This document shows positions 57,582 through 64,000 of a stretch of 64,000 nt of DNA, in pieces (the first letter of the stretch is position 1; each line of letters begins with the position of its first letter). The notes beneath the pieces were generated by a model that was given only the letters and a program-made list of their open reading frames with translations, searched no databases and had not been told where the DNA came from. This DNA comes from Anastatus disparis (Eukaryota > Arthropoda > Insecta > Hymenoptera > Eupelmidae). The stretch lies in contig JAFFSR010000231.1 in NCBI GenBank assembly GCA_017163975.1, positions 124,001-188,000 of the forward strand, read 5' to 3'. Both the position numbers and the translations under genes were made by a program.

Positions 57582-58347
57582 GAGGCCCACACAGCATGAA
57601 ATATTGCAAAGAAACTTTCACTGAAATATTGTGCTGAAATATTGTCACAAGATTGCAGCAATCTTGTCTTAACATTGCTAAGAGGTTTCATGAAACATTT
57701 CAGTGTGATATTGTTGCAAACTTGCTACAAGGTTACAGAAAATAATTCAAGCAATATTGCAAGGAACCTTTCATGAAAGGTTGCAGCGAGGTTTCTGCAA
57801 GGTTTTATAAAACATTTCATGAAATATTGCAAGAAACCTTTCATGAAAGGTTGCAGCGAGGTTTCTGCAAGATTTTAGAAACAATTCATGAAATATTGCA
57901 AGAAAACTTTCATGACATGTTTCAGCGAGGTTTCCAGCAAGATTTAGAAAACATTTCATAGAATATTGCAAGAAACCTTTCATGAAAGGTTGCAGCGAGG
58001 TTTCTGAAAGATTTTAGGAATATTTTATGAATTGTTGCAAGAAACCTTTTATGCAAGGTTGCATAGAAGTTTCCAGCAAAATTAAGAAAACATTTTATAA
58101 AATATTGCAAGGAACCTTTCATGAAAGGTTGCAGCAAGGTTTCTGCAAGATTTTAGAAATATTTCATGAAATTTTGCAAGAAACCTTTCATGAAAGATTG
58201 CAGCGAGGTTTCTGTAAGATTTTAGAAATATTTCATAAAATATTGCAAGAAAACTTTCACGAAAGGTTGCTGCGAGGTTTTCAGCACGATTAAGAAATTA
58301 TTTCATAGAATATTGCAAGGAACCTTTCATGAAAGGTTGCAGCGACG
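57582..58347. repeat. 70-bp tandem repeat with an element B-like terminus
   Basis: The left boundary CCCACACAGCATGAAATATT resembles the terminus of element B. From 57771 the phrase TCATGAAAGGTTGCAGCGAG recurs every 69-70 bp (57771, 57841, 57910, 57980, 58050, 58120, 58189, 58258, 58328), nine copies. The last copy is cut at GCAGCGACG, where the Transib-like element begins, so the array probably continues beyond the right edge of that element. Confidence 0.8.
58343..58347. other. CGACG target site next to the Transib-like terminus
   Basis: Five bases, CGACG, directly before CACAGTG. In the other array copies this position reads CGAGG. Published Transib elements make 5-bp duplications with a CGWCG preference, and CGACG fits exactly. 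The partner copy would lie outside the window. Confidence 0.65.
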
Positions 58348-58455
58348 CACAGTGGGAAAAAACGGAAACAATTCCATCCACTCGCCATTTTAGATCGTAT
58401 GGTCACAAATTTTTTTTTAATCTTCTTCAAGTAACATATATATCAAGCTAAAAGT

Positions 58456-59345
58456 GCGGAAAAGCCCACAAACCCAGAGCCCTTAAACCCAAGACCCACA
58501 AACCCAGATCCCGCGAACCCAAAGCCCACAAACCCAGAGCCCACAAATGCAGAGCCCCAAACCCAGAGCCCACAAACCCAGAGCCCTTAAACCCAAGACC
58601 CACAAACCCAGATCCCGCGAACCTAAAGCCCACAAACCCAGAGCCCACAAATGCAGAGCCCCAAACCCAGAGCCCACAAACCCAGAGCCCTTAAACCCAA
58701 GACCCACAAACCCAGATCCCGCGAACCCAAAGCCCACAAACCCAGAGCCCACAAATGCAGAGCCCCAAACCCAGAGCCCACAAACCCAGAGCCCACAAAT
58801 GCAGAGCCCCAAACCCAGAGCCCACAAACCCAGAGCCCTTAAACCCAAGACCCACAAACCCAGATCCCGCGAACCCAAAGCCCACAAACCCAGAGCCCAC
58901 AAATGCAGAGCCCCAAACCCAGAGCCCACAAACCCAGAGCCCTTAAACCCAAGACCCACAAACCCAGATCCCATGAACCCAAAGCCCACAAACCCAGAGC
59001 CCACAAATGCAGAGCCCCAAACCCAGAGCCCACAAACCCAGAGCCCTTAAACCCAAGACCCACAAACCCAGATCCCGCGAACCCAAAGCCCACAAACCCA
59101 GAGCCCACAAATGCAGAGCCCCAAACCCAGAGCCCACAAACCCAGAGCCCTTAAACCCAAGACCCACAAACCCAGATCCCGCGAACCCAAAGCCCACAAA
59201 CCCAGAGCCCACAAATGCAGAGCCCACAAACCCAGAGCCCTTAAACCCAAGACCCACAAACCCAGATCCCGCGAACCCAAAGCCCACAAACCCAGAGCCC
59301 ACAAATGCAGAGCCCCAAACCCAGAGCCCACAAACTTAGAGCTCA
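58456..59345 (+). repeat. left array: 104-bp higher-order repeat of seven 15-mers
   Basis: Each 104-bp unit consists of six 15-bp monomers and one of 14 bp: CCCTTAAACCCAAGA, CCCACAAACCCAGAT, CCCGCGAACCCAAAG, CCCACAAACCCAGAG, CCCACAAATGCAGAG, CCCCAAACCCAGAG, CCCACAAACCCAGAG. About eight units are present. One contracted unit of 44 bp (three monomers) lies at 58755-58798, and a second short unit near 59217. Open frames through it (KPRAHKPRALKP, GSGFVGFGF) are artefacts. 59346-59530 holds decayed monomers, so the array edge has degenerated. Confidence 0.92.
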
Positions 59346-59900
59346 CGAGCCTAAGATCCACAAACTAGAATAAACCATAATGCCAAAACTCATAAACCAA
59401 AATCCTTACACCCATAAACCCAAAACTCAGAAACTCAAAACTCAGTGAACCCCGAGATCCCTACTGTATCAATCCAAAATCCATCTACCTTAAGACCCAT
59501 AAACTACAAAATCCATAAACCATAAATTTTAAAAGTTGACCGTTCACACATATTACAGGATCGTTTGTAACAGAAGTATATGATTCACGTCAATCTTGTA
59601 GATTTTAATTCCGTTTATTTGATTCATGTATAAAGCTGTGTCTTATGAATTAGCCAACCTTCGTTTTATATTTTTCATTTCCATATATCAGTAGGAGGAC
59701 TTTATTAAAATTTTAGGGTTATAAATTATATAGAATTTTTCTTGTTACATTTCATATCAACAGTTATAAAATACAAAATATATTTAGAAATTTATTAATC
59801 ACAGAACACATGTAAAAATACTTTCGAGAATATAAAATTGTGTATCTTTAGTCATCAATCATTTTGTTAAAAGTGAAAAATTCATTAAAAATATTAAGTT

Positions 59901-61947: not shown

Positions 61948-61969
61948 AAATAGGTTAGAAAATACAGTG

Positions 61970-62355
61970 TAATAAAAATTGAATACAAAGACAAAAAAAA
62001 TTAACTGAAAAAAAAAACAAAAAGAGTTTAAAAAAGATGAAAAAAATAAAAAAAAAAAAATTTTAAAAGATAAAAAAATAACAAAAAAAATTTTTAAAAG
62101 ATAAAAAAATAAAAAAAAAAATTTTAAAAGAAAAAATAAACAAAAAAAAATTTAAAAGATAAAAAAATAAAAAAAAATTTTAAAAGATAAAAAAATACAA
62201 AAAAAAAATTTTAAAAGATAAAAAATAAACAAAAAAAAATTTTTAAAGATAAAAAAATAAAAAAAAATTTTAGAAGATAAAAAAAAAAAAAATTTAAAAG
62301 ATAAAAAAAATAACAAAAAAAATTTTAAAAGATAAAAAAAAAACCAAAAAAAAAA
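61970..62355 (+). repeat. A-rich tandem repeat, about 30-bp unit
   Basis: Repeated AAAAATTTTAAAAGATAAAA with variable A runs, about ten units, directly after the transposase stop and a possible AATAAAA signal at 61970. Followed by a GC-richer phrase, CTACCTTGACGTGGTAAAGG (62380), that I cannot assign. Confidence 0.8.
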
Positions 62356-62469
62356 TCAGAAAACCCCTTTGAAGACTGCTACCTTGACGTGGTAAAGGGG
62401 CTTGAGTCGAAATGTTTCAGCGAAGACTAACTAAAAGCAGTTCAAGAACTCACCTGTAATGATAGTCGG

Positions 62470-64000
62470 GTTCTGTGGTTATGGGATTCTTCGCATTTCT
62501 GATCACGTGGTTCTTTGTGGTTCATGAGTCTTAAAATTTGCAGATTCATGAGTTTGTGGGCTCTGGGTTTGTGGGCTTTGGGTTCGCGGGATCTGGGTTT
62601 GTGGGTCTTGGGTTTAAGGGCTCTGGGTTTGTGGGCTCTGGGTTTGGGGCTCTGCATTTGTGGGCTCTGGGTTTGTGGGCTTTGGGTTCATGGGATCTGG
62701 GTTTGTGGGTCTTGGGTTTAAGGGCTCTGGGTTTGTGGGCTCTGGGTTTGGGGCTCTGCATTTGTGGGCTCTGGGTTTGTGGGCTTTGGGTTCGAGGGAT
62801 CTGGGTTTGTGGGTCTTGCGTTTAAGGGCTCTGGGTTTGTGGGCTCTGGGTTTGGGGCTCTGCATTTGTGGGCTCTGGGTTTGTGGGCTTTGGGTTCATG
62901 GGATCTGGGTTTGTGGGTCTTGGGTTTAAGGGCTCTGGGTTTGTGGGCTCTGGGTTTGGGGCTCTGCATTTGTGGGCTCTGGGTTTGTGGGCTTTGGGTT
63001 CGTGGGATCTGGGTTTGTGGGTCTTGGGTTTAAGGGCTCTGGGTTTGTGGGCTCTGGGTTTGGGGCTCTGCATTTGTGGGCTCTGGGTTTGTGGGCTTTG
63101 GGTTCGCGGGATCTGGGTTTGTGGGTCTTGGGTTTAAGGGCTCTGGGTTTGTGGGCTCTGGGTTTGGGGCTCTGCATTTGTGGGCTCTGGGTTTGTGGGC
63201 ATTGGGTTCCTGGGGATCTGGGTTTGTGGGTCTTGCGTTTAAGGGCTCTGGGTTTGTGGGCTCTGGGTTTGGGGCTCTGCATTTGTGGGCTCTGGGTTTG
63301 TGGGCTTTGGGTTCGTGGGATCTGGGTTTGTGGGTCTTGGGTTTAAGGGCTCTGGGTTTGTGGGCTCTGGGTTTGGGGCTCTGCATTTGTGGGCTCTGGG
63401 TTTGTGGGCTTTGGGTTCATGGGATCTGGGTTTGTGGGTCTTGGGTTTAAGGGCTCTGGGTTTGTGGGCTCTGGGTTTGGGGCTCTGCATTTGTGGGCTC
63501 TGGGTTTGTGGGCTTTGGGTTCACTGGGATCTGGGTTTGTGGGTCTTGCGTTTAAGGGCTCTGGGTTTGTGGGCTCTGGGTTTGGGGCTCTGCATTTGTG
63601 GGCTCTGGGTTTGTGGGCTTTGGGTTCATGGGATCTGGGTTTGTGGGTCTTGGGTTTAAGGGCTCTGGGTTTGTGGGCTCTGGGTTTGGGGCTCTGCATT
63701 TGTGGGCTCTGGGTTTGTGGGCTTTGGGTTCATGGGATCTGAGTTTGTGGGTCTTGGGTTTAAGGGCTCTGGGTTTGTGGGCTCTGGGTTTGGGGCTCTG
63801 CATTTGTGGGCTCTGGGTTTGTGGGCTTTGGGTTCGCGGGATCTGGGTTTGTGGGTCTTGCGTTTAAGGGCTCTGGGTTTGTGGGCTCTGGGTTTGGGGC
63901 TCTGGGTTTGTGGGCTTTGGGTTCGCGGGATCTGGGTTTGTGGGTCTTGGGTTTAAGGGCTCTGGGTTTGTGGGCTCTGGGTTTGGGGCTCTGCATTTGT
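62470..64000 (-). repeat. right array: the same 104-bp unit in inverted orientation
   Basis: From about 62556 the complement of the left-array unit repeats with a step of 104 bp (GGGCTCTGCATTTGTGGG at 62648, 62752, 62856, 62960, 63064 and onwards). At least 13 units are present before the window ends. Some units carry one-base insertions (near 63205 and 63525), and one near 63900 lacks the ATGCAG monomer. Text 62470-62555 is decayed array edge, mirroring 59346-59530. The array continues past 64000. Confidence 0.93.

Follow-up and report, generated by a model that had tools for sequence, protein, structure and literature searches.

Transib transposases are close transposon kin of RAG1, the enzyme that cuts antibody genes, and the ends of Transib elements serve as a model for the origin of recombination signals. 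Reported here is an element located in a stretch of 64,000 nucleotides (the window) from the hymenopteran Anastatus disparis (GenBank assembly GCA_017163975.1, contig JAFFSR010000231.1, positions 124,001 to 188,000; C229:124001-188000 below). It is very probably a Transib DNA transposon in which a RAG1-type DDE transposase gene lies between two inverted arms, each made up of a 113-bp end and a 104-bp tandem array of variable copy number, and it likely moves by cut and paste. Its chemistry is ordinary and its ends are unusual; it is a Foldback-like Transib.

Hztransib of Helicoverpa zea (structure 6pqn and others) is 3,518 bp long, encodes a 489-aa protein and is flanked by the duplication GCTCG; it is described with 'long TIRs' (terminal inverted repeats), arrays are not mentioned for it in the available text, and a legend states that some of twelve transposons hold microsatellites (PMC1852546). 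The window element shares with Hztransib the whole catalytic region, the residues D, D and E, a 5-bp duplication and a single gene, and differs from it in roughly 150-170 more residues ahead of the matched core and in its tandem-array arms. The first-pass annotation had stated that Transib elements usually have short inverted repeats and no satellite arms. Regarding length this has to be corrected, whereas the rarity of tandem arrays stands: because Hztransib already had 'long TIRs' (PMC1852546), the arrays and not the length of the inverted repeats are the unusual part. No Transib with tandem-array ends was found in the open-access literature as far as it was available, a search that did not include Repbase. 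The Drosophila elements hopper and transib2 produce 5-bp duplications, with the target CCANTGG (PMC3276498).

Regarding the architecture of the arms, the nearest tested precedent for repeats that act as transposase sites is Galileo, an element of the P superfamily in Drosophila, in which tandem repeats within the long ends hold transposase-binding sites (PMC3688188) and repeat number varies (PMC3573991). Like the window element, Galileo has long terminal inverted repeats that contain tandem repeats in variable number; it differs in an unrelated transposase with a THAP domain, in that its repeats are few and long where the window element has tens of 15-bp monomers, and in that binding sites were found in only two of its four repeats. 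The arms of Tm1, a Mutator/Phantom-type element of root-knot nematodes, consist mostly of 13-15 bp tandem repeats in variable number and flank a transposase gene in some members, as here, but the transposase is a different one, the duplications are 9 bp long and no higher-order unit is described in the available text (PMC3169594). Tetris, a Foldback-type element of Drosophila virilis, has variable-number tandem repeats inside inverted ends, but no transposase was found for it and its 220-bp repeats also form free satellite arrays (PMC4079207), whereas the exact unit of the window family was not found outside the element. RAGL/ProtoRAG elements combine RAG1L with a RAG2L partner gene. The window element does not fit this plan; in the part of it that lies within the window, no second frame of at least 140 aa was found outside the arrays. 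With variable tandem repeats in inverted arms inside its termini, the element is Foldback-like.

Termini, arms and transposase gene

The window copy is 5,848 bp long (C229:182348-188195), its right part being cut by the end of the window. Its parts are as follows:

57739..58342, host satellite of 69/70 bp broken by the insertion (tandem repeat calls to 58345)
58343..58347, left target-site duplication CGACG (right twin C229:188196-188200, just outside the window)
58348..58460 (+), left terminal sequence of 113 bp, opening with CACAGTG and identical to the right terminus C229:188083-188195
58461..59346 (+), left array, 8.5 copies of the 104-bp unit; the minus strand is G-rich and reads outward
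59347..59530 (+), inner margin of the left array, decayed; its outer limit was set by eye
59901..61947 (+), Transib transposase gene, split over three frames in this copy
61987..62355 (+), A-rich array with a period of about 31 bp, located after the gene and before the right arm
62356..62552 (+), non-array inner block and decayed inner edge of the right arm
62553..64000 (-), right array, the same 104-bp unit inverted; the plus strand is G-rich and reads outward

The terminal heptamer CACAGTG proposed in the first-pass annotation, which resembles that of a recombination signal sequence (RSS), is present at 58348, directly after CGACG, and has no other exact occurrence within the window; CACTGTG is absent from the window. 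The counterpart expected beyond the right array was recovered from the contig, where the DNA adjoining the window reads TTTCCCACTGTG, then CGACG, placing CACTGTG and the duplication 195 bp past the window. The target-site duplication is thus identical on both flanks, and the terminal inverted repeat is perfect over 117 bp. From base composition, a heptamer within 5 positions of the satellite break is expected with p about 1.5e-4. The satellite starts again to the right of the element; the flanks, once joined, read GCAGCGACGCTTCTGCAAG and differ by two bases from the commonest satellite units (GCAGCGAGGTTTCTGCAAG), and because the joined flanks restore a satellite unit, the insertion site is recovered to within these two differences. 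A candidate right end between the gene and the right array was rejected, as 61948-64000 contains neither a CA[CT]NGTG variant nor CGACG. The same interval gave one match to the reversed 113-bp end (score 14.5, shuffle mean 8.4, equalled by 0 of 300 shuffles) that needs all 113 bp and is read, without further test, as A/T runs.

The inverted 104-bp arrays claimed around the gene were recovered on both sides by tandem repeat calls. The unit consists of seven monomers of 15, 15, 14, 15, 15, 15 and 15 bp. The right array comprises 13.8 units in the window and runs to about 73 bp past it, giving 14.6 units in total. Among whole units of 100-106 bp between anchors (six left, nine right), identity was 98.1% between the arms, and within single arms it was 99.0% (left) and 98.5% (right); with one variable triplet masked, the values were 99.5, 99.7 and 99.4. 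The longest perfect inverted match within the window measures 242 bp. That triplet (GATCCC-NNN-AACC) is hypervariable in an otherwise near-invariant unit, occurring as GCG, ATG, ACG, TCG and in longer or shorter forms; either a mutational hot spot or an artefact of base calling could explain this. At the decayed inner edge of the left array, 59411-59452 keeps a 79-81% match to array units, and the inner edges of the left array and right arm show an inverted similarity equalled by one of 500 shuffles. No second copy of the block 62356..62552 was found within the window at E 0.01.

The gene is interrupted in the window copy by two frameshifts, near 60.10-60.15 kb and 61.12-61.135 kb (60101-60149 and 61117-61135). 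Its RAG1-like motifs, noticed in the first pass, are present, and sequence and profile comparisons place the protein with Transib: the two main open pieces matched HzTransib with E 2.3e-58 and 1.6e-28, whereas RAG1 structures were matched weakly by the single sequence (E 0.03 and above), and a profile built from 50 relatives gave 4.8e-195 for HzTransib against 7e-15 for RAG1. Regarding the Pfam RAG1 model, a window piece scored 15.1, under the cut-off of 25, which some relatives, e.g. P0003 and P0034, passed. The catalytic codons lie at 60728-60730 (D), 61100-61102 (D) and 61726-61728 (E), and a CxxC at 61147; D, D and E are invariant in the alignment of 50 sequences. They correspond to D126, D225 and E436 of Hztransib (PMC6941560), the numbering of that paper having been matched to the structure chain in this analysis by an offset of 17. 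The best of 273 protein matches (120 listed) was P0001, from a metagenome source, which is uninterrupted and 81% identical over 98% of the query; the named relatives among the matches listed include a weevil, flies, a butterfly and a bug. Judged from these comparisons, the gene is classed as that of a true Transib transposase. Outside the part matched to HzTransib, some 90 N-terminal residues and a K-x-GRP stretch are conserved (59901-60350), and these form a candidate DNA-binding region. The GRP may recall the GGRPR motif of the nonamer-binding domain of RAG1. The first 84 residues of the transposase gave no Pfam match, and NCBIfam gave none in three transposase relatives.

Ten copies and a second family

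Ten places in the assembly (939 Mb in 399 contigs) matched the full 2,481-bp query almost identically. Any two of these ten copies differ by 0-5 substitutions in the gene region (2,485 columns; mean 2.2). Both ends were seen in nine copies, all nine with identical 5-bp duplications: CGACG, CGCCG, CGGCG, TGCCG, CCCCG, TGGCG, CGGCG, TGACG and GAGCG. The first column holds C five times, T three times and G once, the second G seven times, C once and A once, the third G four times, C three times and A twice, and the last two are C and G throughout, so that NGNCG fits seven of the nine sites and NNNCG all nine. A CGNCG target preference for Transib was reportedly described by Kapitonov and Jurka in 2005. 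The heptamer is exact at both ends in eight of the nine copies, C352a having one changed base near the right tip, and the two ends of a copy show 0-2 mismatches over 113 bp. In the tenth copy, C6 (locus L007), the right end is followed by CGCCG and the left side runs into N; it was for this reason left out of array-length ranges and end comparisons. A genome search with the 113-bp end returned 19 ends, i.e. both ends of nine copies and one of C6, and listed neither solo ends nor gene-less copies (the counts are lower bounds).

A frame of 682 aa is open in five copies (C242, C211, C205, C352a and C6). It stops after 83 codons in the window copy, C327 and C236, after 477 in C352b and after 480 in C371. 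Such breaks at similar places in near-identical copies may be shared, recurrent or consensus errors. Because divergence is near zero and five copies have open frames, the element is likely young, active now or very recently, and still mobile.

None of the ten copies lacks arrays, a possibility that had been raised in the first pass: the nine two-ended copies carry the 104-bp array in both arms (Tandem Repeats Finder), and C6 carries the unit on both sides of the gene (28 exact 33-mer matches left, six right). The nine copies hold 5.6 to 10.1 units (573-1,034 bp) on the left and 5.8 to 19.0 units (609-1,990 bp) on the right, with a correlation of -0.03 between left and right array length. The left array of C6 extends over more than 3.5 kb before the run of N and is the longest seen in the family. 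The arrays differ in length largely by whole units, and these carry copy-specific variants. As the genes hardly differ, array length, as read from assembled sequence, must have changed much faster than single bases. In all nine two-ended copies the gene is followed by the A-rich array (period about 31 bp), and the span containing it, from the gene end to the next block, varies from 293 to 505 bp.

A genome search for one 33-bp stretch of the unit gave 199 exact matches (103 forward, 96 reverse; none for the control), all of them in the ten copies; the search covered this exact pattern and not diverged units. The exact pattern of the unit is therefore private to the element and not a host satellite. 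Among whole units of 100-107 bp (121 units from 18 arms), identity was 0.9815 between the arms of one element, 0.9835 and 0.9809 between same-side arms of different elements, and 0.9821 between opposite arms of different elements. Because units are equally alike between arms and between elements, the arms look like one largely shared pool; they appear to be partly homogenised and not fully mixed.

Relatives were viewed with 1.5-kb flanks at ten loci (eight places) from 29 weaker rows, the place at 1.2 Mb of C211 being read whole and that on C295 over 9.9 kb. The former holds a second family (C211:1197427-1202557, 5,131 bp) that starts with CACAGTG, ends with CACTGTG and is flanked by CGTCG on both sides. 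Its transposase lies in one frame, with a longest stop-free run of 373 codons as assembled, and shares 51% identity with P0001. The left array is C-rich and the right one G-rich; the two are inverted with respect to each other (87% over 828 bp, ends included), and the gene is followed by a 31- or 36-bp A-rich array. Periodicity scores are best at 45 bp in the left arm and at 83 bp in the right; both arms also have a 15-bp period, which scores lower, and the monomer CAAACCCCAAATCCA differs from AGCCCACAAACCCAG of the window family. A G-rich array stands on the right at loci L017 and L019, the former also with the right end CACTGTG, and a different, G/T-rich array stands on the right at L011. 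The layout with array arms is thus common to at least two families and not to every Transib in the genome.

Role and origin of the arms

The transposase is predicted to cut at the CACAGTG ends and to join them to 5-bp targets whose last two bases are CG. The arrays would grow and shrink fast by unequal exchange or slippage and would be partly homogenised between arms. By analogy with Galileo, the arms may have been retained because they assist the transposase, most likely by offering many secondary contact sites or by serving as a spacer platform, a reading that is plausible and still somewhat short of probable. We put forward more tentatively that this is a Transib lineage whose kilobase G-rich inverted arrays would form a multi-site platform for a RAG1-type transposase, the repeats drifting while position, orientation and strand bias are kept. 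Several observations weigh against parts of this account. Recent activity has to be reconciled with the five copies, the window copy included, that lack a full frame as assembled. Full exchange between the arms is at odds with the GCG triplet in the window (seven of eight left, four of 14 right; Fisher p 0.024) and with the variant AAACGCAAG across copies (6/70 left, 29/106 right). A role of the arms is difficult to square with their several-fold variation in length, with the 113-bp end, where an array-like site is at chance level (best local match equalled by 199 of 500 shuffles), and with the second family, in which ACAAACCC occurs six and four times in the arms as against 25 times in the window left arm. 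Among the other relatives, the one on C295 (L012) has a 21/42-bp array on the left (5') only, with neither a right arm nor paired ends in the 9.9 kb read, and neither a G-rich nor a C-rich array was seen within the 1.5-kb flanks of L013, the C303 locus or L020.

Much of this would be expected if the arrays were a passive by-product, i.e. G-rich minisatellites that expand by slippage or unequal exchange between long inverted repeats and are tolerated without a role in transposition. This explanation is a strong contender, if not quite a probable one; the uncorrelated arm lengths, the monomer that is not kept between families, the decayed array edges, the want of a monomer-like site in the 113-bp end and the relatives without such arms in the stretch viewed all suit it. 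It accounts less readily for the presence of arrays to either side of the gene in all ten copies, for a layout and strand bias that recur in a family as distant as the second one, and for an end search that returned, as a lower bound, no ends beyond those of the ten copies. That the arrays act instead as DNA structure, the outward G-rich strand forming G-quadruplexes or stalling replication and so leading to repair, copy gain and arm exchange, is unlikely, although quadruplex-type motifs are one-sided (473 on the outward and 0 on the inward strand in the arms of nine copies) and frequent (the window arrays hold 22 on the left and 37 on the right, with one more elsewhere in the window; base-shuffled arms average 1.3 and 2.1), and G4Hunter means are 1.08-1.23 in the arms of both families against 0.06 in the gene. 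Because an asymmetric unit in inverted arms automatically gives opposite strand bias, the informative part is motif density and its recurrence in the second family, where three-tetrad motifs are few (none at L015, which contains the right arm, and one each at L017 and L019) and two-tetrad motifs are the only kind in quantity.

Two further explanations concern the origin of the arrays. That a Transib inserted into, or between, arrays of a host satellite would be in keeping with the abundance of host satellites here, one of which is the actual target; this is rejected as extremely improbable, since the arrays lie inside termini and duplications in nine of nine copies and the exact 33-mer is found nowhere else in the assembly. 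It is improbable as a whole that long-read assembly errors produced the differences in array length, the variable triplet and the frameshifts. The concentration of variation in one triplet per unit and the recurring frame interruptions (at 83 codons in three copies, at 477 and 480 in two), such as systematic consensus errors might produce, speak for such errors, and the triplet and the frameshifts may indeed be artefacts of this kind; this is less likely for the length differences, which are mostly of whole units with copy-specific variants in arrays of a size that fits within long reads.

Surroundings and significance

Stretches related to the 69/70-bp host satellite also lie near 18.9, 20.4-21.9 and 24 kb of the window. 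Long imperfect arrays of GAGACGGA-type repeats surround LINE-like (long interspersed nuclear element) frames at 1-7170, these frames being judged by eye, and frames at 44390-48109 resemble an LTR (long terminal repeat) retroelement, with parts that are protease- and reverse-transcriptase-like by eye. An uninterrupted frame of 901 aa for a LINE-type reverse transcriptase occupies 52564-55269 (minus strand); the five best of its 63 relatives listed are 50-61% identical, and the relatives named are from Ampulex, Nasonia, Diachasma, Trichomalopsis and Prorops, all of them Hymenoptera. No RNA family was found at gathering level, three matches in 61900-62600 being at chance level (E 4.8-5.3), and no tRNAs were found. 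No copy of the element was confirmed in viral contigs or prokaryote genome contigs, and an array 24-mer was not found in viral contigs.

The element extends the Foldback architecture, reported in the sources available for Mutator-type and P-type elements, to another superfamily, and by exact-pattern search it is a clear case of a minisatellite confined to a transposon. Ten near-identical copies, five of them with open frames, whose ends differ mainly in array length constitute a natural dose series, which suits the question of whether extra end sequence helps a RAG-type enzyme to find, pair or cut its ends. If the arrays do serve as a platform, the RAG/Transib recombinase would recognise its ends beyond a single heptamer-nonamer signal.

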